DNA of 64,000 bases. Source: Dulcicalothrix desertica PCC 7102. Lineage in GTDB: Bacteria > Cyanobacteriota > Cyanobacteriia > Cyanobacteriales > Nostocaceae. Shown piece after piece: positions 1-64,000 of the stretch. A program made the translations under genes and the position numbers. The stretch's first letter is position 1; every line of letters begins with the position of its first letter. Below the pieces are notes generated by a model that was given only the letters and a program-made list of their open reading frames with translations, was not told the origin of the DNA and searched no databases. Location of the stretch: assembly GCF_003991905.1 (NCBI RefSeq), contig NZ_RSCL01000009.1, forward strand, positions 305,894 to 369,893. The letters run 5' to 3'.

Positions 1-1094
1 TCGAGAACTTCGTTGATAACAGATGTACTAACACGGCGCCGATGTGACTCAACGCTGCTGGTGACTAGTTCTAAGATTTTTTCAACACGCTGTCCGGTTT
101 GAGCGCTGACAAAGATTGTGTCTGCCCACTCGGTAAAATGTAATCGTTCTTCAAGCGCTTTCTGATAGTCGTAAATTGTATGGGAGTCTTTTTCAATTGC
201 GTCCCATTTATTTACAACAATAATACACGCGCGTCCTTCGTCAACGATTCGTCCCGCTAGTTTTTGGTCTTGGTCGGTGACTCCATCCAGTGCGTCTATT
301 ACTAATAACACTACATCCGAACGTCGAATAGCTTTGAATGCACGGTTAATACTAAAGAATTCTGTACCATATTCGATACTTTTCTTTCTGCGAATTCCTG
401 CGGTATCGATAAGACGATATTTGTGCCCGTCACGTTCAATGAATGTATCAATTGCATCGCGGGTTGTACCGGAAATGGGACTAACGATGGCGCGTTCTTC
501 ACCAACGAATGCGTTTAATAGACTTGATTTACCGACATTTGGGCGCCCGACAATCGCAATTTTGATTTCTTCGTTTTCTGGTATATCTTGTACCATCGGT
601 AAATGGTTGATTAACTCGTCGAGTAAATCACCTGTACCACTACCGTGAATAGCAGAAATAGGATATGGTTCACCGAGTCCCAATGACCAAAACTCAGCAG
701 CTTGCATTAAACCTTGTTCGGGAGATTCGCATTTATTGACTGCAAGCAAGACGGGAACTTTTTGAACTCGCAACCAAGAGGCAATTTCTTCATCAGAAGA
801 ATTTGGCCCTGTTTGTCCATCGACTAAAAGAATAGCAGCACTTGCTTCAGAGAGTGCCGTCATCGCTTGCTGGCGAATAAACGGTAAAAATTCGGTATCA
901 TCGTTGAATATCAAACCACCTGTATCAACGACTGTAAACTCTCTATCACGCCAAAACGCTTTTAAGTAGGTTCTGTCACGTGTCACACCTGGTTCATCGT
1001 GAACTATAGCAGTTTGTTCACCAGCGAGACGATTTACAAAAGTTGACTTGCCCACATTGGGGCGCCCGATAATAGCAACAACAGGTAAACTCAT
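1..1094 (-). CDS. der: Ribosome biogenesis GTPase Der (EngA), 3' end outside window
   Basis: Reading leftwards from the ATG at 1094-1092 gives 364 codons without a stop, and the frame runs off the window edge, so about 90 residues of a usual 450-residue Der are missing. Two tandem GTPase domains are visible, each with a P-loop GRPNVGKS (the first at residues 10-17), a DTGG or DTAG switch and an NKC/NKW.D guanine-specificity motif. A KH-like domain would follow. The family binds the large ribosomal subunit and helps its assembly. The gene is divergent from the metallophosphoesterase, with a 111-base gap. Identification is firm because the double EngA domain is unique to Der. Confidence 0.96.
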
Positions 1095-1205
1095 AATAGT
1101 TTAGTTAGCTCCATCTAAAATATTTATATTTGACAGTTAAACGAATTCAAACTTAAAACAGTACAGGGTATATAAAAATAAGTCTAAAAGACTGGAGATT
1201 GAACC

Positions 1206-2078
1206 TTGATATACTATAAGCAACGCCGTTATACACGCCGAAGGGTATTTAGATTTATCAAGTCAGGCTTATTTATACTCGGAATATGTACCTTACTATA
1301 CGCTTACTTCATAGAACCAAACTGGATTGAGATTAAATCGCTACAATTAAGTCTTCCACACCTTCCACAAGAATTTAACGAATATAGAATTGTACAAATT
1401 AGTGATATCCATGTCAATCGATGGATGACTTCAGCACGTTTAAAGCGTATTTTTCGATTAGTCAATCAGCAAAACCCTGATTCAATAGTAATTACAGGTG
1501 ACTTGGTAACACATGAGCAACAACGCTTTATTCCTAAATTACAACAGACACTGGGTCTACTTACCGCAAAAGAGGGTAAATTTGGAGTGTTAGGGAATCA
1601 TGACTATGGCGCCAATCCCGAAGCGATTGCAAAAACAATGGCAGAAACTGGTGTCATCAATCTCAATAATACCTATTATATATTACAACGTGGAACAGCA
1701 AAATTGTATATAGCTGGAGTAGATGATGTTTGGGCAGGAAAAGCTAGGTTAGACTTAGTGCTACAAAACTTACCATTAAATGGCGCCGCAATATTACTAG
1801 CACACGAACCAGACTTTGGCGACACCAGCGCCGCAACCAACAGGTTTGATTTACAATTATCAGGACATTCCCACGCTGGACAAATACGCTTACCCTTTTT
1901 AAAACCACCTGTATTACCTGACTTAGGTAAAAAATATTACGCAGGACTCTATCAAATTGGTGGAATGAAATTATACACAAACCGAGGTGTAGGTATGACA
2001 GGACTTCATGTCAGATTTAATTGTCGTCCAGAAATTACCGTTATTACACTTCATGCTGAAAAAATTGGCAACGGATAA
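1206..2078 (+). CDS. Metallophosphoesterase, membrane-anchored (YaeI-like)
   Basis: The 290-residue protein has a short basic N-terminus, then one hydrophobic segment (about residues 18-36), then a calcineurin-type phosphoesterase domain. The metal-binding signature is complete: D67-I-H, GDLVT, GNHD and GHSH, in the usual order. YaeI-type members are dimetal phosphodiesterases or phosphatases held at the membrane; the substrate here is unknown. The start is probably TTG at 1206, because GGAG lies 8 bases upstream (1194-1197) and no in-frame ATG occurs before the catalytic core. It stands alone on this strand. Confidence 0.9.
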   Translation: MIYYKQRRYTRRRVFRFIKSGLFILGICTLLYAYFIEPNWIEIKSLQLSLPHLPQEFNEYRIVQISDIHVNRWMTSARLKRIFRLVNQQNPDSIVITGDLVTHEQQRFIPKLQQTLGLLTAKEGKFGVLGNHDYGANPEAIAKTMAETGVINLNNTYYILQRGTAKLYIAGVDDVWAGKARLDLVLQNLPLNGAAILLAHEPDFGDTSAATNRFDLQLSGHSHAGQIRLPFLKPPVLPDLGKKYYAGLYQIGGMKLYTNRGVGMTGLHVRFNCRPEITVITLHAEKIGNG

Positions 2079-2209
2079 AAACGGATGTAACGGATGGGCA
2101 ATTTTAAATAATCAATGTCCTTGTTAAATGTATATTTGGCTCCTTTTACAATTACAAGCAAGACAGAATGTGAGAACATAATTTCTGTGCAATTACCAGC
2201 GCTGCCAAA

Positions 2210-2417
2210 ATGCCGACAAATAACTCTGAAATACTTGCCCAAGCTAGAGAAATTCTGAATGCAATCGCTTTTACTCCATTTGAAGAATGTCAATCATTAA
2301 GTAGAGATTTTACCAATCTTTTACTGGAATAATGCTGCGCTACTATTAGAATTAGAAGCTATTATCTTAAGAGCAACCGAACCTCCTTACAACGTGCAAA
2401 TCCCAAGCGAACAATAA
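2210..2417 (+). pseudogene. Frameshifted small gene, unknown function
   Basis: An ATG at 2210 opens a 40-codon reading frame (MPTNNSEILAQAREILNAIA...) that stops at 2330-2332. From about 2318 the next frame continues as protein-like sequence (FYWNNAALLLELEAIILRA...) to a TAA at 2415-2417, four bases before the next gene. A one-base slip around CTTTTACTGG would join the two parts into one protein of about 69 residues. I read this as a small gene broken by a frameshift; a sequencing error or programmed slippage is possible. The family is not recognised. Confidence 0.4.
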
Positions 2418-2421
2418 AGCT

Positions 2422-2628
2422 ATGCAAGCGAAAACGAAAGAGCAACTTGATTCTTCTGATGCAGAAATTATCTTAGGGCGCCTGCCCGAAAGAATTCAAG
2501 CAGCCTTAATTGCCCATGCCACTGAAATTGAGTATCCTATTGAAGCAGTCATTGAAATGGCAATTGCCAGTTTCCTGGACACAGAGGCTTTAGGTTTTGC
2601 TGATTGTAAACCAGGACGTGGGCAATAA
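2422..2628 (+). CDS. Small conserved-looking hypothetical protein
   Basis: A 68-residue acidic protein with an amphipathic helical centre (GRLPERIQAALIAHATEIEY, then a second helix) and the tail FADCKPGRGQ. Composition and length suggest a real small protein, perhaps DNA- or partner-binding like many antitoxin-sized cyanobacterial proteins, but I do not recognise the family. It follows the frameshifted ORF ending at 2417 by four bases, so the two may once have formed an operon. No clear Shine-Dalgarno sequence is seen. The 235 bases to the next gene hold nothing I could name. Confidence 0.55.
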   Translation: MQAKTKEQLDSSDAEIILGRLPERIQAALIAHATEIEYPIEAVIEMAIASFLDTEALGFADCKPGRGQ

Positions 2629-2863
2629 AACGAACTCGCTCAATATTTATAATTACTACATCTATAGGAATCACGCAAAATAGAAGTTCATTTTTTGAAT
2701 TTGGACAAAATTGTGTAAAGTTATTTAACGAAAGTTTGCTAGAGTACACATAAAATTATACAGTTTGAAACTATTTAGGTATTTGGTCGGTATTGGTGTA
2801 TTAGTGGAATATTAGCAAAATATATACAAATCTGTTTTTCACCCACAGGCGCCTACTTAATAT

Positions 2864-5800
2864 ATGTTTACAATAAATCCTTCTACCACTGACACCAAAA
2901 GAAAACGAGTGCAACTCAGAGTTGTATACGAAGAGTTACCACCTGTTGAAAAGCAGATAGTGCAATTGTTCTCAATAATTTATGAGCCTGTGAGTAAAAA
3001 GCAGTTTTCTAGCTGTTTTAGTAAAATAGGCGCCGTAGATAGTAAAACTTTAGATGTATATATAGATGGGTTAGTTAAAGCAGAACTACTTGTCAAAAAT
3101 AATGAGTTGATTCAATGTCATGATTTATTGGTAGAAATTGTTACACGAGATGCAGTGTCTAGTGGAAAATTTGAAGTTTTTGCTGACTCGGTTCAAGTTG
3201 GGATACCAATAAGGAATTATGAAATAAATGGGTCTCGATATTTCTCGAATGATACGCAGTTAATACGCGAGGTTCGTATTGGTATTTACCGTGGTAATTT
3301 AAATTTTGTAGATAAACAGTTTATTGACTACGAACAATGTAGACAGATTAAAAATAAAATATCACGGCAGGAAGTTATTTATAAAATATGTAACAATCCT
3401 TTTGATGCCAAGTGGATTCAAGCTTTACCTCAAGAATTATACGAAAATTGTTTACAAATCATTTTATTAGATTCTGCTCTCAAGTTATTGGCTGCTGACG
3501 AAGCATTTAATTTACTTAAAGAAGAATGTTTTTCTCAAGGTGAGCATTGTTCTGATTATTTACGGATAATTTTGACTGAACAGTTGTTACTGCGTGGTCG
3601 TTTACAAGAAGCACAGCAGTGTTTAGAGTCTATATCTGAATCATATCAAGATATTACTCTTGTTTATCGGGGATGGATGAATTTTTTACGCGATGATGTT
3701 GATGAAGCTATTGTATATTATAATAATGCCCTCAAAGCTTTAAATCCAGGTCGAGGTAAGCGTCAAAGCTATTTTAATAATTTGGCTGGGTTGTTTTTTA
3801 TACTCGCTTTAATTAAAGAAGGTTCAAAAAAGAATTTAGAAAAAGCTTTAGATTATTGTAGCTTGATGTCGCACGGTAATCATTGGCTGCGAATGGTTTA
3901 CTCTCAGTTAAAAATTTTACTTGAAGTTCAGTTAGGTGATATTTCACATAAACATTTTATTCTCACTAACCGCATCATCTTTCCTGGAGAACACAATATT
4001 ATCGAAGCATTATTTTTTATGCTTTGTCATTATTGGACAGATGCCAATAGTGCGAAAAGACATTTACCTGGTTTGGTAGAGCGCTGTTATTCGCAAGCGA
4101 TGACAAACGATTATACTTGGTTGGCGATGGAAAGTGTAGAATTATTATCGCGACTTCGGTCAGATGCTAGTTTGGAAACTCAGGCAGAAAATCTCAACGA
4201 AGAATTAGGGATAACTAGTATTATTAATACTATTGCACCACAATCTTCATGGCAACGCTGTTTGAATGCTCTTGCTAATTTAAAGAAACAGGCGCCTACT
4301 ATTAAAGAGGGTACCACACGGTTAGCTTGGTTTATTACTCATTATGCATACAATTGTACGCTACAACCGCGCGAACAAAAGGTGAATAATAAGGGAGAAT
4401 GGGGTAAAGGGCGCCCGATAGCTTTGAAGCGTTTAAAAAATGAGTTGGATGAATTTGATTATTTAACAACGCAGGATATTAAAGCTTGTGCTTGTATTGA
4501 AGCTGAATATGATGGGCATTATTATGGTAAAACCGAATATTCGTTTCCCGATAGAGCGATAACAGCTTTGGTTGGTCATCCTTTAGTATTTTGGGACGAT
4601 GCAGCTTCTACACGAGTAGAAGTTGTAAAGGGAGAACCAGAGTTAATAGTTAAGAAAGGTCGCAAAGGTAAATTAACTATCGAGTTTTCGCCAAAACTAT
4701 CCCATAGCCAAAATGTTTTAGCTATCAAAGAAACTCCTACGCGCATTAAAGTAATTGAAATTACCAGCGAACACAGACGTATTGCTGAAATAATTGGGAA
4801 TGATAATCGATTAGTAGTACCGATTAGTGCCGAAAAGCAAGTATTAGAGGCAATTAATGGAGTTTCAGAAATTGTAACAGTACATTCAGATATTGGTGGT
4901 GGGGTTGGAGGCGCCGATGAGATACCCGCACAAACAATACCATATATTATATTATTACCGAATAAAGAAGGGTTGAAAGTAAGTTTATTATCTTGTCCGT
5001 TTGGCAGTGGTGGTCCTTATTATCGTCCGGGTACAGGTGGCGAAACGGTTATTGCTGAAATTAAAAATAGGCGCCAACAAACACGACGTAATCTAAAAGA
5101 AGAGAAGTTGCTGACAGATAATGCCATTGCAGCTTGTCCAACTTTAGCAGGTATTGAAACAGAAGATGGGGAATGGCAAATAAATAACCCAGAAGATTGT
5201 TTAGAACTTTTATTAGAACTACAAGCGTTAGGAGATAGTGTTGTAATTGAGTGGCCTGAAGGAGAAAAGCTGCGGGTAAGTCATCGTGCTGACCTGAAAG
5301 ATTTGCAAATGTCGATTCAACGCTCCTCTGATTGGTTCGGCGCCACAGGTGAGTTAAAATTAGATGATAATTTGGTGTTAGATATGCAGCGGTTGTTAGA
5401 ACTGCTCGATAATACACCTGGTAGATTTATTCCTCTTGGTGATGGTCAATTTTTAGCATTAACACAAGCATTCCGTAGGCGCCTAGATGAATTAAAAACA
5501 TTTTCAGAAATATCTAATAAAGGTATAAGGTTTCATCCGTTAGCAACACTGGGGTTAGAAGACTTTGTTGACGAAGTAGGTACACTCAAAGCAGATAAAC
5601 ATTGGAAAGCGCATGTACAGCGTTTAAAAGAAAGTCAAAACTTACAGCCTAAACTACCAAGTACCTTTCAAGCAGAGTTACGCGACTATCAAGTTGAAGG
5701 TTTTAATTGGATGTCACGTTTGGCACATTGGGGAGTAGGGGCCTGTTTAGCAGACCAAATGGGATTAGGAAAAACAATACAAGCATTAGCAGTAATTTTA

Positions 5801-7054
5801 AACCGTGCTAGTGCTGGGGCAACTTTAATTATTGCACCAACATCTGTATGCATGAATTGGATTAGCGAAGCTCAAAAATTTGCGCCAACTTTAAATCTTA
5901 TTCAATTTGGTAATAATAAGCGGCAAAAAGTTTTGGATAATTTAAAGCCTTTTGACATGTTTATTTGTAGCTATGGATTATTACAGCAAGAAGAAGTTTC
6001 GCAAATGCTATCTCAGGTCGAATGGCAAACCATAGTATTAGACGAAGCGCAAGCGATAAAAAACATGTCAACCAAACGCTCGCAAGCAGCAATGAATTTA
6101 AAAGCAGGTTTTAAGCTAATTACAACCGGAACACCAATAGAAAATCATCTTGGTGAACTTTGGAATTTATTTAGATTTATTAATCCTGGTTTACTTGGTT
6201 CATTTGAAAGCTTTAACGAACGCTTTGCCAACCCCATCGAAAAATTCCAAGATAAAGGCGCCCGTACCAAGTTGAAAAAACTCATTCAACCATTTATACT
6301 GCGTCGTACAAAGAACCAAGTATTAGAATCATTACCATCGCGTACCGAAATATTATTACATGTAGAATTAAGTCGCGAAGAAATGGCGTTTTACGAAGCA
6401 TTACGACGTGAAGCAGTAGCAAAACTTACGAACGAAGAGGCGCCTTTCTCAGGTCAAAAACATCTACAAGTATTAGCAGAAATAATGAAACTGCGTCGTT
6501 CTTGTTGTAATGCTCGGTTGGTGGCAAAAGACACTAAATTACCAAGTGCCAAACTACAACTTTTTGGCGAAGTATTAGGAGAATTACTAGAAAACCGTCA
6601 TAAAGTCCTGGTATTTAGTCAATTTGTAGACCACTTACATATTATCCGTGATTATTTAGATACACAAAACATCAGCTATCAATATTTAGACGGCAGCACA
6701 CCTGTAACAAACCGCAAAAAAGCAGTTGATGCATTCCAAGCAGGAGAAGGAGACGTATTTTTAATTAGTTTAAAAGCAGGAGGAACAGGCTTAAATCTTA
6801 CTGCTGCTGACTATGTAATTCATATGGACCCGTGGTGGAACCCAGCAGTCGAAGACCAAGCATCTGACCGCGCGCACCGCATAGGACAACAACGACCAGT
6901 TACTATATATAGACTAGTTGCCAAAGACACCATCGAAGACAAAATCGTTGAATTACACCATCACAAACGTGACCTAGCAGATAGTTTACTCGAAGGCGCC
7001 GACATTAGCGGCAAAATGTCCACAGAAGTATTACTCGAATTAATGGGTGCCTAA
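2864..7054 (+). CDS. SNF2-family DEAD/DEAH-box helicase with long N-terminal regulatory region
   Basis: This 1396-residue protein ends in a complete SNF2 ATPase: Walker A DQMGLGKT with lysine at residue 970, motif II DEAQ at 1060, TTGTPIENHLGELWN (motif III), VFSQFVDHL (motif IV), LKAGGTGLNLTAADYV (V) and DRAHRIGQ (VI). The first 500 or so residues look like a winged-helix start followed by helical TPR-like repeats, unlike the shorter RapA/HepA enzymes. The middle matches the SNF2-associated region often seen before bacterial SNF2 cores. Such enzymes translocate on double-stranded DNA and remodel protein-DNA complexes; the target here is unknown. It is monocistronic. Confidence 0.93.
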   Translation: MFTINPSTTDTKRKRVQLRVVYEELPPVEKQIVQLFSIIYEPVSKKQFSSCFSKIGAVDSKTLDVYIDGLVKAELLVKNNELIQCHDLLVEIVTRDAVSSGKFEVFADSVQVGIPIRNYEINGSRYFSNDTQLIREVRIGIYRGNLNFVDKQFIDYEQCRQIKNKISRQEVIYKICNNPFDAKWIQALPQELYENCLQIILLDSALKLLAADEAFNLLKEECFSQGEHCSDYLRIILTEQLLLRGRLQEAQQCLESISESYQDITLVYRGWMNFLRDDVDEAIVYYNNALKALNPGRGKRQSYFNNLAGLFFILALIKEGSKKNLEKALDYCSLMSHGNHWLRMVYSQLKILLEVQLGDISHKHFILTNRIIFPGEHNIIEALFFMLCHYWTDANSAKRHLPGLVERCYSQAMTNDYTWLAMESVELLSRLRSDASLETQAENLNEELGITSIINTIAPQSSWQRCLNALANLKKQAPTIKEGTTRLAWFITHYAYNCTLQPREQKVNNKGEWGKGRPIALKRLKNELDEFDYLTTQDIKACACIEAEYDGHYYGKTEYSFPDRAITALVGHPLVFWDDAASTRVEVVKGEPELIVKKGRKGKLTIEFSPKLSHSQNVLAIKETPTRIKVIEITSEHRRIAEIIGNDNRLVVPISAEKQVLEAINGVSEIVTVHSDIGGGVGGADEIPAQTIPYIILLPNKEGLKVSLLSCPFGSGGPYYRPGTGGETVIAEIKNRRQQTRRNLKEEKLLTDNAIAACPTLAGIETEDGEWQINNPEDCLELLLELQALGDSVVIEWPEGEKLRVSHRADLKDLQMSIQRSSDWFGATGELKLDDNLVLDMQRLLELLDNTPGRFIPLGDGQFLALTQAFRRRLDELKTFSEISNKGIRFHPLATLGLEDFVDEVGTLKADKHWKAHVQRLKESQNLQPKLPSTFQAELRDYQVEGFNWMSRLAHWGVGACLADQMGLGKTIQALAVILNRASAGATLIIAPTSVCMNWISEAQKFAPTLNLIQFGNNKRQKVLDNLKPFDMFICSYGLLQQEEVSQMLSQVEWQTIVLDEAQAIKNMSTKRSQAAMNLKAGFKLITTGTPIENHLGELWNLFRFINPGLLGSFESFNERFANPIEKFQDKGARTKLKKLIQPFILRRTKNQVLESLPSRTEILLHVELSREEMAFYEALRREAVAKLTNEEAPFSGQKHLQVLAEIMKLRRSCCNARLVAKDTKLPSAKLQLFGEVLGELLENRHKVLVFSQFVDHLHIIRDYLDTQNISYQYLDGSTPVTNRKKAVDAFQAGEGDVFLISLKAGGTGLNLTAADYVIHMDPWWNPAVEDQASDRAHRIGQQRPVTIYRLVAKDTIEDKIVELHHHKRDLADSLLEGADISGKMSTEVLLELMGA

Positions 7055-7061
7055 CATAGTG

Positions 7062-7082
7062 GCACAGGCATCCTGCCTGTGC
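7062..7082. repeat. Inverted repeat GCACAGGC..GCCTGTGC
   Basis: GCACAGGC and GCCTGTGC are separated by five bases and lie just after the helicase stop codon. A related copy is at 8733-8756 and a similar hairpin sits at 41684-41703. It is a short dispersed cyanobacterial-type repeat and could act as a transcript end here. Confidence 0.7.
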
Positions 7083-7106
7083 ATTACCTTCTAAGAAACA
7101 TATTAT

Positions 7107-7288
7107 ATCTTGCACCTGGATTTATACATGTGATTTTATTTACCAATTATAAAATTATGCCCATACCCGCCTAGGGTTAAAACCCGTAGGCGCGAGTAGC
7201 TTAAGTTCATTAAAATGAACTAAATTAATCAGTAATATTAGAAACATGCTTATTTAAAATAAAGAATTTATACGTAGAGGTGCAAGAT
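7107..7288. mobile_element. MITE-like element, copy 1 (182 bp)
   Basis: ATCTTGCACCT at 7107-7117 and AGGTGCAAGAT at 7278-7288 form 11-base terminal inverted repeats. The interior is non-coding and contains an internal inverted repeat (CGCCTAGGGTT..CCCGTAGGCG). Read on the minus strand, much of it aligns with 48548-48731, sharing for example CTCTACGTAT, AAGCATGTT, TAATATTACT, TTTTAATGAACTT and GGCGGGTATG. No transposase and no clear target-site duplication is visible. It fills most of the gap 7055-7397. Confidence 0.65.
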
Positions 7289-7397
7289 GTCAGCCTCCGA
7301 CTGGCGCCACGCTCCAGTAAAATATGAAACATGCACATTTTTTGGAACCCTTGCTATATATGGATTTTGGAATGTGCAAATTAGGAGTTACCCCATA

Positions 7398-7769
7398 TTA
7401 CTTTGGTTGCCATACAATTTCCGAACGTTTCGCCAACAATCCCGCTAATCGTTCCGCTTGGGCTAGGTTATCCTCTCGCAAAGGTAAACCAATAATATTC
7501 GCATGGTTCACAGAATCTTGCTTGATATCCAAACCAATTTCCCGAACGTGCCCAACCTCAAGACTAGCAACTCCATAACACTTACGAAATAATTCAGCGC
7601 ACTGTTCTGGAGAACACGCATTGGCCAAATTGACTGAAAGTCCTGGTTCAGAAGCTCTTAGGAAATATGCATCTGCCTTCACCTTTCCTGTGTCCTCATC
7701 AATCCACTGTTTACGAAGCAACGCTCTATAAACAATTGCATCCTTTGCTAATGGCTCAAACTGACTCAT
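7398..7769 (-). CDS. Unknown protein, second gene of a coupled pair
   Basis: The chosen ATG at 7769 overlaps the stop codon of the upstream gene as ATGA (7766-7769), a typical translational-coupling arrangement, and gives 124 residues. An earlier in-frame start at 7793 would lie well inside the upstream gene. The protein has YRALLRKQWIDEDTGKVKAD near the start, then FLRASEPGLSV and CYGVASLEVG; cysteines occur around residues 50-60. I recall similar proteins of unknown function in many bacteria, but cannot name a characterised family. Size and pairing resemble a toxin-antitoxin or immunity module; that is inference only. Confidence 0.75.
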   Translation of the reverse strand: MSQFEPLAKDAIVYRALLRKQWIDEDTGKVKADAYFLRASEPGLSVNLANACSPEQCAELFRKCYGVASLEVGHVREIGLDIKQDSVNHANIIGLPLREDNLAQAERLAGLLAKRSEIVWQPK

Positions 7770-8158
7770 GCTTGGTTCAGCCACTCCAACCACTGCACTA
7801 ATATTGATACTGTTACGTCCCGCTCAACGGCGTAATTATCTCCCAACTCATGATATAAATAAGTTTGTTGAGAAGCATCCGCAGGGCAAACTAACCGAAC
7901 TTCACCAGAAGGCGCCTGTTTGCTCCATGTTAATCGAATACCACCTTGTTCATCCGTCGAAGCTGAAGCCCTTGGAAAAGAATCTCCCATTGCTTCATAA
8001 GCATCTACGACCAATCGCATTACCGACTTAAAAGCATATTGGCTTGGTTGTAAAATTCCATACTCATCTGTCTCATCCTCTTCTAAAAGAGCAACAAGTC
8101 GCTTTAATGTCACCGTAATATCATTGCTAGAAGGTTTCGCTAAAGCTTGCACGGACAT
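7766..8158 (-). CDS. Unknown protein, first gene of a coupled pair
   Basis: An acidic protein of 130 residues when started at the ATG at 8158; a TTG three codons upstream is the alternative. It has a helical N-terminal half and a beta-rich part with GGIRLTWSKQ, EVRLVCPAD and TYLYHELGDNY. This layout resembles small bacterial proteins in which a helical segment precedes a 'GGIxLxW' strand and which often sit in two-gene cassettes of unknown role. Its stop overlaps the start of the next gene by four bases. No membrane segment or signal peptide is seen. Confidence 0.75.
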   Translation of the reverse strand: MSVQALAKPSSNDITVTLKRLVALLEEDETDEYGILQPSQYAFKSVMRLVVDAYEAMGDSFPRASASTDEQGGIRLTWSKQAPSGEVRLVCPADASQQTYLYHELGDNYAVERDVTVSILVQWLEWLNQA

Positions 8159-8291
8159 AAAATTCAAGTAAATTAGGGATATAAATATAAGCCTAACATA
8201 AGCATTACTTAATAAGCGCGATACTTTTGCTTTTCCTTAGATTTGTATACATTACTTTAGTAATTATATCTATTTTGATAAATCTTCATGC

Positions 8292-8498
8292 TCAAGACGT
8301 TTCTTCAGGTTTATCAGATTGACGAAACGAACGTCCGTATTCCAAAGCTTCAAGAAAAGCTGCTTCGTCCGAAATTGAACCAATTAATTTGTTAAGCCAA
8401 TTATCAGAAGTAGAATCATTATTATTTTTTTGTTTTAAGGCTGCAACCTCTCTTTCTAGAGTGGCTAGACGCTGTTCAATAGCTGCTTCATCTAACAT
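8292..8498 (-). CDS. Small antitoxin-like protein
   Basis: The 68 residues start at the ATG at 8498 with a predicted coiled coil (MLDEAAIEQRLATLEREVAA), then NWLNKLIGSISDEAAFLEAL and a polar tail YGRSFRQSDKPEE. I recall cyanobacterial proteins of this form upstream of PIN-domain (VapC-type) toxins. Here no PIN gene follows; the next gene on the strand, 133 bases on, is the unknown coupled pair. It may be an orphan antitoxin or be linked to that pair. Recognition is from memory and moderate. Confidence 0.6.
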   Translation of the reverse strand: MLDEAAIEQRLATLEREVAALKQKNNNDSTSDNWLNKLIGSISDEAAFLEALEYGRSFRQSDKPEETS

Positions 8499-8732
8499 AA
8501 TTTATTCCAATTAACCTAAATTCATTCGGGAGCATCCAATGAAGGCAGATAGACTTTTTTAGACCAACCATATAGTAAGGTCTCCGGCGCCATATAATTT
8601 GTGTTTCTTCCAAAAGTGGATGCTCCCAATTCATTTAGATTATATACTTCAACTTGGTAAAAGTAGATTACAGCATCTTGCAATACACATAGAGTACACC
8701 CCCACTTGAATAAATGGAAGCTTGTAAACGTA

Positions 8733-8756
8733 GCACAGGCACGCTTCTGCGTGTGC
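8733..8756. repeat. Inverted repeat GCACAGGC..GTGTGC
   Basis: This is an imperfect copy of the GCACAGGC hairpin at 7062-7082, again followed by GCATTACC. It lies in the 321-base gap between the antitoxin-like gene and the sigma factor gene. The rest of that gap contains a weak ORF on the minus strand that I do not accept as a gene. Confidence 0.5.
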
Positions 8757-8819
8757 ATTACCAGAGTAAATTATATTCTTGCTAAAATTGCTTAATCCTG
8801 TAATCTAATTTATATGGAT

Positions 8820-11027: not shown

Positions 11028-12230
11028 ATTGCAATATTAAATAATCCCTTTCAGGGATTGAAACTACAACGATGGTGGCGCCACGACTACAACTGCTACT
11101 ATTGCAATATTAAATAATCCCTTTCAGGGATTGAAACACGGTATTTAACAAATACTTCTCTGGCAGAATTCCATTGCAATATTAAATAATCCCTTTCAGG
11201 GATTGAAACCACTCTCCAGCGTGATAACCTATCATTTTTCTAACTTATTGCAATATTAAATAATCCCTTTCAGGGATTGAAACTCCTTCTTTCCCAAGCA
11301 TTGCACAAAGATTCCAGCGAAATTGCAATATTAAATAATCCCTTTCAGGGATTGAAACAATGATATTGTTTTTGATAGCATATTCCCATATTATTGCAAT
11401 ATTAAATAATCCCTTTCAGGGATTGAAACAAAGTAGCCGTAGCTTAGGGGGTCTGTGGCAATGGATTGCAATATTAAATAATCCCTTTCAGGGATTGAAA
11501 CTCTTGTACAAATATAAGCTCTTTTCCTCTAAAAGTATTGCAATATTAAATAATCCCTTTCAGGGATTGAAACCAAAAGCTAAGAAGCGACGCTTTATCC
11601 CAAGCGGGCAATTGCAATATTAAATAATCCCTTTCAGGGATTGAAACCTGAATTTAACACCCTTGCCCAAGATAATGCCCACATATTGCAATATTAAATA
11701 ATCCCTTTCAGGGATTGAAACGTATGCAGCATGGTAGGATTTTAAAACCGCCCCTAGTATTGCAATATTAAATAATCCCTTTCAGGGATTGAAACGATGT
11801 TATTGACGCGCAACCTATGACTGATGCTAATTGCAATATTAAATAATCCCTTTCAGGGATTGAAACGAAGGGGTATAGATAGTAGCTATAACCCTGGTGA
11901 CGAATTGCAATATTAAATAATCCCTTTCAGGGATTGAAACGCACAGGGTAGCTAATAAACATTTCATTCTCGCACTTCATTGCAATATTAAATAATCCCT
12001 TTCAGGGATTGAAACAAAACGTTTTGGGCATTATCTGGAGAAATATTGATTGCAATATTAAATAATCCCTTTCAGGGATTGAAACGTATAAAGATTTCTC
12101 GCTAATGCGGCAAATAACATTGCAATATTAAATAATCCCTTTCAGGGATTGAAACTTTCCACTTTTGCTCTGGTAACACCGATTGCCACAGGCATTACAA
12201 TATTAAATAATCCCTTTCAGGGATTGAAAC
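11028..12230 (+). CRISPR. CRISPR array, 17 repeats of 37 nt and 16 spacers
   Basis: The repeat begins ATTGCAATATTAAATAATCC and ends CTTTCAGGGATTGAAAC. Its internal CCCT..AGGG forms a short hairpin and its ATTGAAAC 3' end is the typical crRNA 5' handle. Repeats start at 11028, 11101, 11173, 11247, 11322, 11393, 11465, 11537, 11611, 11685, 11759, 11830, 11904, 11979, 12049, 12119 and 12194. Spacers are 33-38 nt and all different. The last repeat has A for G in its fifth position (ATTACAAT), marking the distal end. This repeat type is common with cyanobacterial type I-D or III systems, but no cas gene is in the window. Confidence 0.98.
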
Positions 12231-34323: not shown

Positions 34324-35016
34324 GTGGCATCAACATCAGAAAATATAAGTAGTAATCAAAACGAAGCAGGCGATACTGAACGCTGGGCTTCGTTAATTGG
34401 TGGCGGTACTATGGTACTAATGGGCTTGAAGCAGCGTTCACTACGGGGAGTATTGACTGCTATAGCTGGAGGTGGACTACTTTACCAAGGTGTAAAGAAA
34501 AAAAGTACTATTCAACAAGCACAAGAAGCTATAGGAATAGGACAAGTTATTAAAGTTGAAAAAACGGTAACTATCAACAAACCTGCTGATGAGTTATACC
34601 GTTTTTGGCGTAACTTGGAGAACTTGCCTAATTTTATGAAGCATCTCAAAGAAGTTAAAGTGCTTGATAACAAACGTTCACACTGGGTTGCAACGGCGCC
34701 ATTAGGTACAAGTATTGAATGGGATGCTGAAATTCTCGAAGACCGTGAGAATGAGTTTATTTCTTGGGCTTCTGTAGAAGATGCAGATGTGGATAACTCT
34801 GGTTTTGTTAGGTTTACAAAAGCACCTGGAGACAGAGGTACCGAAGTGAAAGTTGTAATGGAATATACTCCACCAGGAGGCGCTTTAACAGCAGCTTTTG
34901 CAAAACTCTTCGGGGAAGAGCCAGAACAGCAAATAGGTGATGAGCTACGTCGCTTCAAGATGTTAATGGAAGCTGGCGAAATAGCCACAACCGAAGGACA
35001 ACCACGCGGAAAGTAA
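34324..35016 (+). CDS. SRPBCC family protein with N-terminal glycine-rich membrane region
   Basis: The 230-residue product starts at GTG 34324. Residues about 20-65 are hydrophobic and glycine-rich (LIGGGTMVLMGLKQRSLRGV), resembling the small DUF2892-type membrane hairpin. Residues 75-220 form a START/polyketide-cyclase-like domain (KTVTINKPADELYRFWRNLENLPNFMKHL), a hydrophobic-ligand pocket. Such proteins with this fusion are found in many stress-type bacterial clusters, but ligand and role are unknown. The alcohol dehydrogenase follows after nine bases. Confidence 0.88.
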   Translation: MASTSENISSNQNEAGDTERWASLIGGGTMVLMGLKQRSLRGVLTAIAGGGLLYQGVKKKSTIQQAQEAIGIGQVIKVEKTVTINKPADELYRFWRNLENLPNFMKHLKEVKVLDNKRSHWVATAPLGTSIEWDAEILEDRENEFISWASVEDADVDNSGFVRFTKAPGDRGTEVKVVMEYTPPGGALTAAFAKLFGEEPEQQIGDELRRFKMLMEAGEIATTEGQPRGK

Positions 35017-40635: not shown

Positions 40636-41640
40636 TTGATATTTAATAAGGTTGTTAGTCTGTTTAAGGAGACGTTTGAAGAGTGGTCAAAGGATAAGGC
40701 TTCACGGTTAGCAGCCGCATTATCTTATTACACGATATTTTCCATCGCTCCTTTGTTAATCATTATCATTGCTGTTGTCGGCGCCGTATTTGGTGAAGAG
40801 GCAGCAAGAGGTGCTATCGAAGTACAACTTCGAGGTTTAGTAGGTCAAGAAAGTGCTGCTCTTATTCAAGGCGCCATTCAAAGCGCAAGTCAACCTCAAC
40901 AAGGAACGATTGCATCAGCAATTAGTGTTCTAGTACTATTATTTGGTGCTACTGGTCTATTTACAGAATTACAAGATTCACTCAATACAATTTGGGAAGT
41001 ACAGCCCAAACCTGGACGTGCAGTAAAAAACATGATTCGCCAAAGGTTTTTATCGTTTACGATGATTTTGGGAATCGGGTTTTTATTGCTAGTATCACTT
41101 GTGATGAGTACTGCTTTATCTGCTACAGTCGGTTATTTTCAAAATCTATTACCAGGTATTGATGGTATTTGGCAGTTAGTCACATTTTTTGTATCTTTTG
41201 TTGTTACGACTATATTATTCGGATTAATCTTTAAAGTTCTTCCAGATGTTAAAATTGCTTGGAGTGATGTTTTAATCGGCGCCTCGATAACATCGTTATT
41301 ATTCTCAATTGGTAGATATTTACTAGGTTTTTACTTAGCAAGAGCCACATTTAACTCTACTTATGGCGCCGCTGGTTCGATAGTAGTAATCTTGTTCTGG
41401 GTTAACTACGCTGCTCAAATTTTATTTTTCGGCGCCGAATTTACACAGGTATATGCACGTAGATACGGAACACAAATAGTTCCCGATAAAAACGCAGTAC
41501 CAATAACAGAAGAAGCGCGTTTACAACAGGGAATGAAACCGAATAATTCTAAGCGTACATCTCGTAAGAATAATAATTGGTTAAATCGTTTGTGGCGCCA
41601 GTTGAAACCGTCTAAGAATAAGCGCAAAAAAAATTATTAA
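40636..41640 (+). CDS. YihY/BrkB family inner-membrane protein
   Basis: The 334-residue protein begins with ETFEEWSKDKASRLAAALSYYTIFSIAPLL, the YihY hallmark, and has about six membrane segments, ending in a basic cytoplasmic tail (SKRTSRKNNNW...KRKKNY). Members form integral membrane proteins of uncertain role, earlier annotated wrongly as RNase BN. The start is TTG at 40636 with GGAG ten bases before; no ATG is near. It converges with the FG-GAP gene. Confidence 0.92.
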   Translation: MIFNKVVSLFKETFEEWSKDKASRLAAALSYYTIFSIAPLLIIIIAVVGAVFGEEAARGAIEVQLRGLVGQESAALIQGAIQSASQPQQGTIASAISVLVLLFGATGLFTELQDSLNTIWEVQPKPGRAVKNMIRQRFLSFTMILGIGFLLLVSLVMSTALSATVGYFQNLLPGIDGIWQLVTFFVSFVVTTILFGLIFKVLPDVKIAWSDVLIGASITSLLFSIGRYLLGFYLARATFNSTYGAAGSIVVILFWVNYAAQILFFGAEFTQVYARRYGTQIVPDKNAVPITEEARLQQGMKPNNSKRTSRKNNNWLNRLWRQLKPSKNKRKKNY

Positions 41641-56764: not shown

Positions 56765-57190
56765 TTAACAGCAGTCATCATCGACTCGTTCACACTGGTA
56801 ATTACCTCTAATTTCATGGTTAAAATATTTACCTATCGAATCAGTTTCTTGCAATTCATTCCAAATTTCTGACTCGACTCCTGTATATTGGTAAACTGCA
56901 CCATTATTAAATTCGACTTGCAATATATGGTTTTCTGCATCGTAACCCAGAGCATTTGCCATCGATGAGTCTACAGGCAGCATCTCTACCCTTTCTGACG
57001 CCGAAGGTAAAGCATTACTAGAAATAGATGCAACTATATTATTAAGTCGCTGTAACCCATCATACGCCGCAACAGGCGCCTCTATTTCTATCAACTCAAG
57101 TTCATCAGTAGTTTGTAGCAACAACTGTAAGTGTCCTTTATCATGACCAACAGCTACAACACTGCCTAAGTTTAATCTCGATAGCTTCAT
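56765..57190 (-). CDS. KTSC-domain protein
   Basis: Starting at ATG 57190 (GGAG close upstream; a GTG three codons earlier is less likely) it has 141 residues. The C-terminal half is a KTSC domain (VDSSMANALGYDAENHILQVEF, VYQYTGV, SIGKYFN). The N-terminal half (KLSRLNLGSVVAVGHDKGHL) seems an extra domain. KTSC domains are linked to nucleic-acid processing, but the exact job is unknown. Confidence 0.85.
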   Translation of the reverse strand: MKLSRLNLGSVVAVGHDKGHLQLLLQTTDELELIEIEAPVAAYDGLQRLNNIVASISSNALPSASERVEMLPVDSSMANALGYDAENHILQVEFNNGAVYQYTGVESEIWNELQETDSIGKYFNHEIRGNYQCERVDDDCC

Positions 57191-57414
57191 CAACTCCACT
57201 CCTGTTTATTTAAATTATTTGGCTTGAATCGTTTATAATGCTCTTATCACAAAATTTTTACTTAATACATAAATACTATAAAATCGAGATTGAGTCAAGG
57301 GTTTGGGGAAAAATAATTAGAACTGATGGAACTGTAAAGTTTTTAAGTTTAGTTTCGAACTTTGTGTTTTCCCAGAGATTTGGTACAATTCATGCAGCTA
57401 AGAAATGATAAACA

Positions 57415-59834: not shown

Positions 59835-59922
59835 GCACGGACGCTCGTTGTTTTTGCTTGCAATGAGATTATCATAGCAGTAGGATTAACAAACCAATGG
59901 GGAATTGAAAAGTTAGACAGTT

Positions 59923-61242
59923 ATGTATAATGAGTATCAGCAGCGTCGCGAGCAATTAATGGCTAAGATTGGTGATGGAACTGCGATTTTTTGCAGTGCG
60001 CCGAACGCGGTAATGCATAATGATGTTGAATATAATTATCGTCAAGATAGTGATTTCTTCTATTTGACGGGTTTTAATGAACCGCAAGCTGTTGCTGTGT
60101 TAGCACCACATCACAATGAACATAAGTTTGTGTTGTTCGTTCGACCCAAAGATAGAGATGCAGAAATTTGGAGTGGTTATCGTTGTGGTGTTGATGCTGC
60201 CAAACAAATTTATGGCGCCGACGAAGTATACTCAATTGCAGAGCTTGACGAGAAATTACCGTCTTATTTAGAAAAAGCGAGTCGCATATACTATAACCTT
60301 GGACGTGAGCGCGCCTTTAATGATAAAGTAATCATGCATTGGCAACGTTTGATGCGAACTTATCCCAAACGCGGAACAGGGCCAATCGCAATAGAAGACA
60401 CTGCTCCTGTTTTACATAGTTTACGTTTAGTTAAGAGCGAATCAGAGTTAGAATTGATGCGAAAAGCTGCCAATATTGCAGTTGAAGCGCATATTGCTGC
60501 GATGAAGTTTGTAGAACCTGGACGTTATGAATATGAAGTGCAGGCAGAAATTGAGCATATTTTTCGTTTAAGAGGAGGAATGGGACCAGCTTATCCTTCT
60601 ATAGTCGCAAGTGGCGCCAACGCATGTGTATTGCACTATATCGAAAACCATAGTCAAATGCAAGAAGGGCAGTTACTATTAATCGATGCAGGATGCGCTT
60701 ACGGTTATTATAATTCTGATATTACCCGCACTTTTCCAGTTGGGAATAAATTCACAAGAGAGCAGAAAATATTATATGAGATAGTACTCGAAGCACAGAA
60801 AAAAGCCATAGCTCAAGTGCAACCAGGCAACCCTTATAATCTTATTCACGATACTGCCGTTCGTACTATTACCGAAGGACTCGTAGAAATAGGTTTACTC
60901 AAAGGAGAAATTGATACTCTGATTCAAGAAGAGAAATATAAACCTTTCTATATGCACCGCACCGGACATTGGTTAGGTTTAGATGTGCATGATGTGGGTG
61001 TATATCAGCATGGAGAAGATAAACCCCAAATATTACAACCCGGTCAAATCACAACAGTCGAACCAGGTATATATATAGTACCAGGTACACAACCTGCCGA
61101 AGGTCAACCCGAAATAGATCCTCGTTGGGTAGGTATTGGAATACGTATTGAAGACGATGTATTGGTTACACCTACGGGGAATGATGTACTGACAGCAGGA
61201 GTTCCGAAGGAAATTAACGACCTGGAGAATAAGAGGGTTTAA
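59923..61242 (+). CDS. pepP: Xaa-Pro aminopeptidase (aminopeptidase P)
   Basis: The 439-residue protein has an aminopeptidase-P N-terminal domain (YNYRQDSDFFYLTGFNEPQA) and a creatinase-fold C-terminal domain with metal ligands in LIDAGCAYGYYNSDITRTFP, HRTGHWLGLDVHDVG, TVEPGIYI and IRIEDDV. It removes the first residue from peptides with proline second. A stretch of repeats follows the stop codon. Confidence 0.95.
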   Translation: MYNEYQQRREQLMAKIGDGTAIFCSAPNAVMHNDVEYNYRQDSDFFYLTGFNEPQAVAVLAPHHNEHKFVLFVRPKDRDAEIWSGYRCGVDAAKQIYGADEVYSIAELDEKLPSYLEKASRIYYNLGRERAFNDKVIMHWQRLMRTYPKRGTGPIAIEDTAPVLHSLRLVKSESELELMRKAANIAVEAHIAAMKFVEPGRYEYEVQAEIEHIFRLRGGMGPAYPSIVASGANACVLHYIENHSQMQEGQLLLIDAGCAYGYYNSDITRTFPVGNKFTREQKILYEIVLEAQKKAIAQVQPGNPYNLIHDTAVRTITEGLVEIGLLKGEIDTLIQEEKYKPFYMHRTGHWLGLDVHDVGVYQHGEDKPQILQPGQITTVEPGIYIVPGTQPAEGQPEIDPRWVGIGIRIEDDVLVTPTGNDVLTAGVPKEINDLENKRV

Positions 61243-61281
61243 ATTTTTGTGCGCCATTGGCGCACATTTGTAAGGTGGCCT

Positions 61282-61316
61282 TCTGCCGTCTGCCATCTGC
61301 CATCTGCCATCTGCCT
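61282..61316. repeat. Heptamer tandem repeat TCTGCCA (STRR type)
   Basis: Five copies of TCTGCCA or its variants (TCTGCCG first, TCTGCCT last) stand in a row. Outside them TAAGGTGG (61271) and CCACCTTA (near 61363) make an inverted pair. Such short tandemly repeated repetitive sequences are typical of filamentous cyanobacteria. Confidence 0.85.
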
Positions 61317-61378
61317 TGCTGCACTAGTTCGTTAGTTCGCGTTGAAAGGGCTGGCAATGCCCACCTTACTATTAGTAT

Positions 61379-62374
61379 CTACTTGGTTTGAAAGATATTT
61401 TGCACCATCTTTTTATTTAAGCTAGCGGCAATTTTATCTAATTCTTCAACTTCTGCGTCCGAAAGTAACCAAGCAATGGCGCCTATATTTTGTTGTGCTT
61501 GGTGTGGAGATTTGGCGCCTGGTATTGGTATAGTACCCTTAGCGATGCACCAATTGATAGCAATTTGAGCTAAAGTTTTATTTCTGGTTTGGGAAATTTC
61601 CTGCATACACTCTAATAACGGTTTCATCCCCGGTAAGATTTGTCTGCAAGCTAAACCACGAATACCTTTGGGATATGAACTTTCAGAATATTTGCCAGTA
61701 AGTAATCCTAATGCTAATGGACTATAAGCAATTATTTTTATACCAAGCTCATCACAAACTTCTTTCAACCCTAACTCAGTCACCGGATAAGTTGATAATA
61801 AAGAGTACTGAACTTGGAGCGTAGTAATTGGGACTCCTCGCTCAGTGCATAATAATTTATGCGCCCATTTTAAACGCTTTGTTCCATAATTAGATAATCC
61901 TACACCTCTAACTAGTCCTTGCTCGTACAAATCTGCTAACCCGTTGAGAAGTGCAGGTTCTTGCCAAGGTGCATAATTTGCAGTTGACCAATGCATTTGC
62001 ACTAAATCAATATTTCTACCAAGACGTTTTGCACTCATCTTTCCAGCAGTTACCATTGACTGACGGGTCAACCTCCAAGGATAAGCAGCAAGTTTGGTTG
62101 CGATACAAATATTTTCTTTGTTGGCGCCGTTAGAGTTTGTAGAATAAGCTTGAGAGAACTGTCCTAAAAGTTGTTCGCTGCGACCATTGAGTTTACCGGT
62201 TCCGTAAGAATCACCCGTATCGAACAAAGTGACACCGTTGGAGACACACAAGTTAAAGACGGCTTGTAAATCATTGTCCATAGAAGTATCATATCCCCAG
62301 AGCAAACGGTTTCCCCATGCCCAAGTTCCGCACCCCATTATTGGCAAAGTAATTTGGCGTCGTAACATTGCCAA
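61379..62374 (-). CDS. Aldo/keto reductase
   Basis: The 331-residue protein has the TIM-barrel features GVTLFDTGDSYGTG, the active-site aspartate and tyrosine there, the AATKLAA(ATKLAAYPWRL) lysine, LVQMHWS (catalytic histidine region) and IPIPGAKSPHQAQQN. It reduces aldehydes or ketones with NADPH, substrate unknown. It lies 34 bases downstream of the tsaB gene on the same strand and may be in its operon. Confidence 0.9.
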   Translation of the reverse strand: MAMLRRQITLPIMGCGTWAWGNRLLWGYDTSMDNDLQAVFNLCVSNGVTLFDTGDSYGTGKLNGRSEQLLGQFSQAYSTNSNGANKENICIATKLAAYPWRLTRQSMVTAGKMSAKRLGRNIDLVQMHWSTANYAPWQEPALLNGLADLYEQGLVRGVGLSNYGTKRLKWAHKLLCTERGVPITTLQVQYSLLSTYPVTELGLKEVCDELGIKIIAYSPLALGLLTGKYSESSYPKGIRGLACRQILPGMKPLLECMQEISQTRNKTLAQIAINWCIAKGTIPIPGAKSPHQAQQNIGAIAWLLSDAEVEELDKIAASLNKKMVQNIFQTK

Positions 62375-62408
62375 AACCAGTAATTATAGAACAAGTAACA
62401 TTTTACCT

Positions 62409-63038
62409 TTAAATATCCACGGGATGTTGTCCATAAAAAGGTAAAGCTTCTGACCAAATAGGGCGCCGACCTTGTTGCCAGTCATAATAAGCAAGTTGTA
62501 AAATACTCGTTACGGTTGCTGCTAACCCGAATTTTGCTTCTACTAAGTCATAAGAATCAAAGCTGGCTAATTTAGACTGCCAAGCTAATGGTGTAAATAC
62601 CGTATCGTTCAGCAACGTATTTATTCCTGCTCCATCGGATACTTTCTTATATACTGCTCCAAATAGCTGTCCTCGCTGTGCGGGCATTTGTACTGCAATA
62701 ATATCTGTATCTAATTTCTCGTTTTCCTTCATCTTCGCAACTGCTGCCAAAGTAGAAATAGCAAACACGGGTATATTCAACTGTTGTCCTAAAGTACGTG
62801 CAGCAACCATACCGATGCGTGTTCCTGTAAAACCACCAGGACCCTTAGCAACAGCGATAAATGCAATATCCTTCCAAGTTTGTGGTTTGATAAACTCCAT
62901 TAAATAAGCGTGTAAATGACTTGATAACTCACGTTCTAAGTTCCAAACTTGATAACGTGTATCAATAGAATTACTTATCGCTAAACCTAATTCGGGTGTA
63001 GTAGTATGTAGTGCTATGCCGTATTTGTTTGCTTCCAT
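62409..63038 (-). CDS. tsaB: tRNA threonylcarbamoyladenosine protein TsaB
   Basis: From the ATG at 63038 the protein has 209 residues; an 11-codon extension to 63071 is less likely. It has the TsaB start YGIALHTTTPELGLAISN and the signature FIAVAKGPGGFTGTRIG. TsaB is the non-catalytic partner of TsaD and TsaE in t6A37 synthesis on tRNAs. The second half reads AVQMPAQRGQLFGAVYK. The gap upstream (63072-63251) contains no further feature. Confidence 0.94.
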   Translation of the reverse strand: MEANKYGIALHTTTPELGLAISNSIDTRYQVWNLERELSSHLHAYLMEFIKPQTWKDIAFIAVAKGPGGFTGTRIGMVAARTLGQQLNIPVFAISTLAAVAKMKENEKLDTDIIAVQMPAQRGQLFGAVYKKVSDGAGINTLLNDTVFTPLAWQSKLASFDSYDLVEAKFGLAATVTSILQLAYYDWQQGRRPIWSEALPFYGQHPVDI

Positions 63039-63251
63039 CGAGTTACACGCCAAGTTTTCCATATCGAGCAAGCATCTTACTTGCCTAGAATCTCATCATA
63101 GCAATAATTAACACCTTCAGATAGCTCAGTTTAACGAGTAATATATCCTTATTGACTGCAAAATTATTAATTAAGTAGGTAAATTCACCCTTACAGTCAA
63201 CTATAATTTATTAATCGTATACAAAATTAAGTAAACTTTTCCTATCTAGTA

Positions 63252-63914
63252 TTGCTTAACAAAGACAAATTAGTCGCGCACGAAAAGTTAACTTCGGGTA
63301 GTAATGCATCTTTTAATACCATGAAAAACACTAATAATGCCTTGGACAAATTGCAATTTGGCGCCAAAAAAGCTTTACCAACATCTCAAGACCTTACAGA
63401 CGTTGAATTTTATTGGAAAAATAGTTTATCAACAAAGCTTGACAATTATTCAACTTCTATCGGATATGTAGCTAAAAAGACTTTGACTAATCGAGTATTT
63501 GAATCAGGTGGCAAATATTCAACAGGGAAATCAAACAACACAAATAACAGAGAAAACTTCAAGATAGATGAAACGTCATTTTCTCTAGAAAATCACCAGC
63601 AATTAGAATTACCATATATAACTGTCCGTCAATAAGTTATATCCACTCCCAGTGGTTGTCTTTATCGTTATTTAAAGAATATTAAGCTCAAATCTGGTGT
63701 TATCGCATCTTATCCTCGTATCAAAGGCGCCCGTAACCCTGATAATATAAATCATTGGTATTGGGGTTACAGCTACAAGGTTCTAATACAGCAAAGTTGG
63801 AAATCTAAGTCTTTGAGCGTTTCTAGAGATAAAATAGATACAGTCAAGCAAATGATAGAAACAAATGTAGCTATTGAAGTAATTAGAGATTTTATTAAAT
63901 TTAAAATTGAATAA
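63252..63914 (+). pseudogene. Gene interrupted by one in-frame stop, unknown domain at C-terminus
   Basis: A frame runs from TTG 63252 to TAA at 63633-63635 (127 residues), and the same frame continues as plainly coding sequence to a TAA at 63912-63914 (92 more residues). The second part reads GVIASYPRIKGARNPDN, HWYWGYSYKV and ends IRDFIKFKIE, which resembles a C-terminal domain found in many cyanobacterial proteins, some near DNA methylases, from memory. The first part is polar and Asn/Thr/Ser-rich. A nonsense mutation or a recoded stop are both possible. The upstream boundary is uncertain. The final 86 bases of the window hold nothing recognisable. Confidence 0.6.
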
Positions 63915-64000
63915 TGTAAAATTTTGTAGAGAAAAGTTCGGTTTGGAAGAAAGCCTGTTCATTACCTAGAAAATTTCTAGAGAAAATCTCCCACAGATGT

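Follow-up and report, generated by a model that had tools for sequence, protein, structure and literature searches.

The 64,000-nt stretch of Dulcicalothrix desertica PCC 7102 examined here (contig NZ_RSCL01000009.1, positions 305,894 to 369,893 of the forward strand; hereafter the window) carries the palindrome GGCGCC in unusual numbers. A sequence-only reading had estimated about 134 copies, one every 480 bases or so against about three expected at roughly 38% GC, and had suggested that this palindrome may have taken the place of HIP1 (highly iterated palindrome 1; GCGATCGC), of which it saw none. The exact count was 134, one per 478 bases, against 3.02 expected from a zero-order model (GC content 0.380), with 5–11 copies in every 4-kb block, and GGCGCC ranked first in over-representation among the 64 palindromic hexamers. 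The features of the window as a whole are the following:

Positions 1..64000, no strand: 134 copies of GGCGCC (alternate HIP), first bases at 35, 542, 1061, 1608, 1782, 2477, 2848, 3029, 4291, 4410, 4910, 5070, 5339, 5478, 6257, 6439, 6995, 7303, 7911, 8586, 9125, 9377, 10212, 10926, 11077, 12357, 12629, 12895, 13122, 13572, 14092, 14581, 14795, 14998, 15286, 16192, 16750, 17212, 17687, 18136, 18740, 19304, 19565, 19964, 20454, 20819, 21080, 21826, 22489, 24061, 24560, 24721, 25070, 25242, 26127, 27202, 27387, 27781, 27862, 28083, 28343, 28656, 28889, 29028, 29181, 29933, 30100, 30273, 31898, 33398, 33907, 34194, 34227, 34695, 35434, 35554, 35986, 36126, 37026, 37929, 37965, 38195, 38736, 39128, 39395, 39843, 40780, 40870, 41278, 41365, 41431, 41594, 41643, 41731, 43457, 44534, 44599, 44743, 45931, 46363, 46645, 46900, 47389, 47414, 47551, 48389, 48748, 49626, 49783, 50790, 51070, 51231, 51393, 51744, 51954, 52416, 53047, 53858, 54213, 54352, 55171, 56578, 57075, 57894, 58639, 58977, 60214, 60613, 61478, 61514, 62123, 62462, 63360 and 63726
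Positions 1..64000, no strand: GATC nearly absent (9 copies; 149 expected) and HIP1 absent (0 copies)

Because the sub-words of GGCGCC are themselves raised by the motif, a maximal-order Markov model gave a high expectation in the window (87). A second-order model of 224 kb of the source genome (window included), in which the sites had been masked, predicted 7.5 copies; 439 were observed. The whole source genome (G000; 11.42 Mb in 109 contigs) held 19,393, one per 589 bases; GGCGCC is thus, as a HIP should be, a GC-rich palindrome far over-represented genome-wide at about one copy per kb. The reversed word CCGCGG, of the same composition, occurred once in the entire genome; it is an imperfect control, being itself avoided in this genome, which carries an Eco29kI-type restriction gene (identified by Pfam). 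Eco29kI cuts CCGCGG. The claim that GGCGCC fills genes and gaps alike was borne out, with 2.11 copies per kb in mechanically called open reading frames (ORFs) and 1.36 per kb outside, or observed-to-expected ratios of 62 and 45. HIP1 was not over-represented: 58 copies were counted in 11.4 Mb against 62 of a control word, most relatives having thousands. Neither a normal GGCGCC frequency nor an abundance of HIP1 elsewhere in the genome was therefore found.

Seven genomes represent the genus: the source genome, Calothrix sp. PCC 7103 (G060; 93–94% identity to the source genome in aligned DNA), PCC 7716 (G065), HK-06 NIES-2101 (G061), NIES-4105 (G062) and the metagenome-assembled genomes C42_A2020_038 (G063; hereafter C42) and FI2-JRJ7 (G064). 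When GGCGCC was counted in 217 genomes of the family, all seven carried 7,475–20,380 copies (1,150–1,711 per Mb); the other 210 had at most 1,053, the control word reaching 1,270 in the top one. HIP1, counted in 208 of the 217 genomes, amounted to 31–163 copies in the seven and 30–8,803 in 201 others, four of which had fewer than 1,000 (G182, G194, G191 and G184). An alternate HIP thus accompanies low HIP1 in every genome of the genus, and GGCGCC abundance is a trait of the clade. A plasmid locus of NIES-4105 was equally dense (29 copies in 20.9 kb). The idea that a different palindrome occupies the place of HIP1 therefore stands for abundance, in all seven genomes, but not site by site as a general rule. 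None of the 18, 30 and 22 GGCGCC sites that could be aligned with three HIP1-bearing genomes from outside the genus overlapped a HIP1 copy, a result that, with 0.1–0.3 overlaps expected by chance in 9–15 kb alignable at 70–72% identity, excludes only a general positional match. No palindromic hexamer was enriched more than 3.1-fold in the portions surveyed of the other low-HIP1 genomes (100 kb each of G194 and G184, 27 kb of G191 and 48 kb of G182). In G194 (10.7 Mb; L209–L213) GATC is nearly gone (5 copies in 100 kb) and HIP1 numbers 535 genome-wide; its common hexamers belong to a short non-palindromic repeat around CCTCGCGGAG, and no alternate palindrome was found.

A preference for certain codons or amino acids (Gly-Ala pairs, GC-rich codons) could make GGCGCC common, and 210 of the 439 sites do read Gly-Ala in frame. 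The enrichment, however, was present in all three frames and in non-coding DNA, and codon usage predicts that 2.4% of Gly-Ala pairs should be written as GGCGCC, while 196 of 306 (64%) were so written in the source genome and 0 of 682 in the pooled HIP1-bearing relatives. In the mirrored control, Ala-Gly was written as GCCGGC in 1 of 294 cases. The frame and non-coding counts refute this explanation, to which we leave practically no probability. Other reading frames behaved in the same way: x-Arg-x contexts were filled in 84 of 147 cases (0 of 243 in relatives) and x-Ala-Pro contexts in 74 of 124 (1 of 286). Overall, 61% of the contexts that could silently hold GGCGCC did so in the source genome, against one of 1,211 in HIP1-bearing relatives. 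The filled fraction, 0.61 in G000, was 0.43–0.58 in five other genomes of the genus; NIES-4105 stood at 0.57.

The sites were conserved beyond what proteins require. In four genomes at 93–95% identity to the source genome, a fraction of 0.77–0.81 of GGCGCC sites was kept, compared with 0.60–0.72 for GC-rich or CpG-containing controls and 0.72–0.75 for all hexamers. In NIES-4105 (86–87% identity) the corresponding values were 0.78, 0.39–0.42 (GC-rich control hexamers) and 0.46, and in C42 23 of 36 sites were kept (controls, 0.30–0.44). When the same DNA was compared at 6% and 13% divergence, GGCGCC went from 0.76–0.88 (the four close genomes) to 0.78 (NIES-4105) and the GC-rich controls from 0.71–0.72 to 0.39. 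Synonymous conservation was assessed at in-frame Gly-Ala sites by comparing, in the same ORFs and where the amino acid was unchanged, GGC and GCC codons inside and outside GGCGCC. In NIES-4105, 131 of 146 codons inside sites were kept against 103 of 216 others (odds ratio 12); the fractions were 0.90–0.92 and 0.76–0.77 in the four close genomes, and the counts 35 of 44 and 35 of 81 in C42. Protein constraint therefore does not explain the retention of GGCGCC.

How far away the next site lay affected whether a context was filled. In G000 the filled fraction was 0.46 below 100 bp, 0.63 at 100–400 bp and 0.77 beyond. The test covered six of the seven genus genomes (HK-06 was left out), which share many sites and hence are not independent; the observed effect was matched by none of 400 shuffles in G000, PCC 7716 and NIES-4105, by three in FI2-JRJ7 and by five in PCC 7103. 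Spacing was also regular, with a coefficient of variation of 0.74–0.90 in six genus genomes. Evenness was ranked in four genomes among hexamers of similar abundance: GGCGCC came first in G000 (178 hexamers) and FI2-JRJ7 (270), and third in PCC 7716 (256) and NIES-4105 (259).

Conservation and spacing of this kind are what selection on function would produce, if GGCGCC were a useful signal (a reference for nucleoid organization, repair or recombination) needed every few hundred bases and its sites were kept by selection. The strong synonymous conservation, the retention of positions across 13% divergence, the even spacing and the reduced filling beside another site all speak for it, as does the argument for selection on HIP1 reported in a passage of PMC6604393. 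The pattern of site loss, however, fits selection less well. Four close genomes and NIES-4105 were aligned to 224 kb of the source genome, and 80 of 593 site-by-genome cases were tip losses, about 13% per short tip branch (81 of 593 in a slightly different screen). If selection acted on spacing, crowded sites should be lost more freely, and loss was not clearly higher near another site: from the nearest to the farthest neighbours it was 14 of 103, 25 of 197, 25 of 137, 13 of 147 and 4 of 9, small numbers with no clear trend. As filling depends on distance and loss shows no such trend, the dependence lies more probably in the creation of sites than in their loss. Further, the enrichment outside genes nearly equals that inside, and selection acting separately on each of 19,393 sites would be a heavy load. 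We regard selection as possible, at roughly one chance in three.

The losses had a characteristic spectrum. Two sites of the window, at positions 121277 and 114878 of the aligned stretch (C9; the window begins at its base 80,001), serve as examples:

Positions 41278..41283, no strand: variable site; GGCGCC in the source genome and FI2-JRJ7, GGTGCC in PCC 7103, PCC 7716 and HK-06, GGCGCT in NIES-4105
Positions 34879..34884, no strand: off-state site; GGCGCT in the source genome, GGTGCC in four relatives, GGCGCC in NIES-4105

In the tip losses, 65 of the 93 changed positions were C>T or G>A at the central CpG. The C>T rate per tip was 5.2% at the inner cytosine (GG[C]GCC), 1.6–1.7% at other CpG, 1.3% at other cytosines, and 0.4% and 1.1% at the other two cytosines of the site. 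(A loss ratio of 1.03 was not used; it was circular, since the expected-loss rates included the sites themselves, and separate rates give the C>T figures.) A hotspot confined to the inner cytosine is the mark expected of GG(5mC)GCC, where 5mC is 5-methylcytosine, although it is a footprint in sequence rather than an assay of methylation. The inner cytosine is also the position whose methylation is needed by the model set out in passages of Elhai 2015 (Life 5:921; PMC4390886).

A 5mC-like hotspot would also suit very-short-patch (Vsr) repair, which would protect and enrich a methylated site by repairing its deamination products. Vsr repair acts at CCWGG in Escherichia coli. We rejected this explanation as very improbable: none of the seven genus genomes had a match to the Vsr endonuclease family (PF03852), present in 5 of 14 control genomes, and the deamination products GGTGCC and GGCACC were in excess (63 against 35.4 expected), not depleted. 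The probability that a site was on given that another genome was deaminated (0.76 against 0.84) is hardly informative about restoration, as the relationships of the five close genomes are nearly star-shaped.

The sites might instead be the relic of a one-off amplification in an ancestor, now decaying. The 80 tip losses stand against 0 tip gains (0.56 gains expected), and C42, the deepest branch, has a lower density and lacks the distance effect. Against such decay, the conservation of GGCGCC barely drops between 6% and 13% divergence, where that of the GC-rich controls falls steeply, and saturation is alike in G000 and NIES-4105. A relic is thus improbable, though somewhat less so than Vsr repair.

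A methyltransferase (MTase) was one of the causes left open by the sequence-only reading, and the comparison of MTase content supports the link. The source genome had 13 m5C-MTase matches, corresponding to 11 genes, and m4C/m6A MTases (PF01555) were also listed. Two m5C types were universal in the genus. The L009 type occurs in 168 of the 217 family genomes and alone cannot explain a genus-only trait. The L004 type (313 aa), the only MTase of its family in the source genome, was found in all seven genomes at 81–100% identity and adjoins the same RuBisCO-like gene in six; in HK-06, pieces of this copy lie at contig ends, and an 83% copy lies elsewhere. Second MTase copies, in pieces, adjoin a 292-aa protein in PCC 7716 (L084:1893-2768), with a similar gene in HK-06 (L111:8781-9659); the PCC 7716 protein matches the DpdA (deoxypurine-in-DNA) Pfam family (E 3.4e-14), an unusual pairing with an MTase.

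Relatives of the L004-type MTase occur in 55 genomes outside the genus. Of the 80 MTase loci found, 40 were examined for neighbours, and in 23 of the 33 of these from outside the genus the MTase adjoins a complete or partial gene for a HindVP-type nuclease (four of the 23 were Pfam-scanned, the others assigned by BLAST clustering). HindV cuts GRCGYC. HindVP (PF09519) was matched in 43 of the 210 other family genomes, broken genes included, and in none of the seven genus genomes. In the 23 loci with MTase and HindVP (413 kb in all; a few of the loci are not from cyanobacteria), GRCGYC was the most avoided of 96 palindromes with one R/Y pair (3 copies against 107.5 expected), and GGCGCC was third in avoidance among unambiguous palindromes (1 against 37.1), behind GCATGC and GTGCAC. 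In nine MTase loci without HindVP, GRCGYC ranked 23rd (22 against 46.1); L121, where no such neighbour was found, belongs to neither set. By relationship and by avoidance in relatives, rather than by assay, the L004-type enzyme is thus a GRCGYC MTase predicted to act on GGCGCC.

Possession of the MTase did not by itself go with abundant GGCGCC: 73 non-genus loci carrying its relatives had 0–2 copies each. The median number of copies per Mb was 0.69 in 24 family genomes with the MTase and an intact nuclease, 0.96 in 15 with a broken or partial nuclease, 8.5 in 16 non-genus genomes that lack a nuclease match but have the MTase, which in three of them is broken or partial, and 5.0 in 155 with no MTase; the genomes are related, so that the P values of the comparison are indicative only. 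Loss of the nuclease therefore lifts avoidance but alone creates no HIP. Genomes G076–G079 (genus g26; loci L123, L118, L130 and L119, assigned via coordinates to Hassallia, Tolypothrix, Plectonema and Spirirestis) have an MTase of the same family, no HindVP match, 6,611–7,706 HIP1 copies and 144–277 GGCGCC per genome, and are a natural control for the switch from HIP1 to GGCGCC.

The reading we favour, with a probability of about 55%, is that GGCGCC is re-created in a methylation-linked and density-dependent way, through biased repair that followed on an orphan MTase after the loss of HIP1. HIP1 would have been lost probably under restriction at GATC, which is depleted about ten-fold, and in the same lineage a HindV-type GRCGYC system would have lost its nuclease, leaving an orphan m5C MTase, presumably the L004 type, to methylate the inner cytosine in vivo. 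Sites would disappear mainly by deamination of that cytosine. A process acting on DNA rather than on protein would re-create them by favouring changes into GGCGCC, most strongly where no other site is near, and would so fill the places that genes permit (61% in the source genome, 43–58% in five others). The likeliest candidate for this process is the methylation-directed mismatch repair, biased to G-5mC, that passages of PMC4390886 propose. Three points favour biased creation over selection: the enrichment outside genes comes close to that within them, filling depends on density and loss does not visibly do so, and loss on short branches is high. A selected signal is nevertheless a serious alternative to repair bias.

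Several observations weigh against biased creation. Among 139 tip contexts a single change short of GGCGCC, none showed a gain, although only 0.56 were expected, so that creation is read from the standing pattern. C42, the most distant member, shows no distance effect (the observed value was reached in 102 of 400 shuffles) and no even spacing (coefficient of variation 1.08). The MTase without a nuclease match is insufficient: the 16 non-genus genomes of this kind have 0.3–43 GGCGCC per Mb, and the 14 of them included in the HIP1 count all retain 1,751–8,091 HIP1. G191 combines the MTase, a stop in the nuclease gene and low HIP1, yet has one GGCGCC. Conservation alone would equally follow from selection, and no G-5mC-dependent repair enzyme is known to us, though none was searched for.

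A broader version of biased creation is possible, though less likely than not. Calothrix could possess a 5mC-directed repair or conversion activity, without MutH, that writes GG(5mC)GCC until almost no place is more than a few hundred bases from a site. The motif would be whichever G-5mC palindrome the resident orphan MTase provides, HIP1 and the motifs that replace it would all be traces left by a single general system of strand discrimination in cyanobacteria, and an MTase from a former restriction system could take over the role.

Other observations concern restriction and a CRISPR array. The palindromes CTGCAG, TTCGAA, GTGCAC, CTCGAG, CGATCG, CCGCGG and GGCC are also strongly avoided in the source genome, and MTases elsewhere in it adjoin restriction genes whose Pfam matches are to TdeIII, Bpu10I, BsuBI/PstI and Eco29kI. 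Two copies of an Eco29kI-type MTase (L010; L012/L013) are each followed by a gene of 211–215 aa, the first with an RE_Eco29kI Pfam match and the second resembling it by eye; one copy comes immediately after an N6/N4 MTase gene. A CRISPR array at 11028–12230 of the window has 17 Rfam CRISPR-DR5 repeats, which lack GGCGCC; its first spacer contains one (11077).

The function and persistence of HIP1 is a decades-old question; Xu, Lawrence and Durand reportedly found in 2018 that HIP1 is maintained by selection. The genus offers a natural replacement experiment, in which one motif is gone, another is installed and an orphan enzyme can be identified. Saturation, distance dependence and loss spectrum are quantities that both selection and repair models must fit, and they can be tested in a culturable strain.

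Replacement of HIP1 by GGCGCC is already published for one member of the genus. In the passages of PMC4390886 cited here, Calothrix PCC 7103 and fragments of D253 have GGCGCC as their alternate HIP, PCC 7103 is depleted in GATC and CGATCG and has two predicted GRCGYC MTases, GACGTC is under-represented, and the methylated base is given as known for no GRCGYC enzyme; within the literature collection searched, no other paper on cyanobacterial GGCGCC was found. The present results confirm and extend that case; new to it are the genus-wide reach and the loss of the nuclease, together with the deamination-like footprint, the conservation at synonymous positions, saturation and the dependence on distance. 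The likeness is close: same motif and genus, HIP1 and GATC depleted, an MTase of GRCGYC type, and GACGTC under-represented. The source genome, however, has one MTase of the family, not two, so that a second copy is not required, and the trait, found in a further genome and in all seven, is common to the clade, which contradicts the argument in those passages that alternate HIPs occur only sporadically and fail to persist within clades. Like HIP1, GGCGCC is a GC-rich palindrome present about once per kb in genes and gaps and tied to solitary MTases. It differs from GCGATCGC in sequence, in lacking a GATC core, in its positions, which are not shared, and in being denser (one per 589 bp); it also avoids close neighbours, unlike the pooled HIP1 of relatives (39 gaps below 100 bp against 35.3 expected). 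With HindV-type (GRCGYC) type II systems it has in common an MTase of the family that is partnered by a HindVP nuclease in many relatives. It departs from them in that the nuclease is missing from all seven genus genomes, and in that GGCGCC is enriched, not avoided, while the other three members of GRCGYC are still under-represented.

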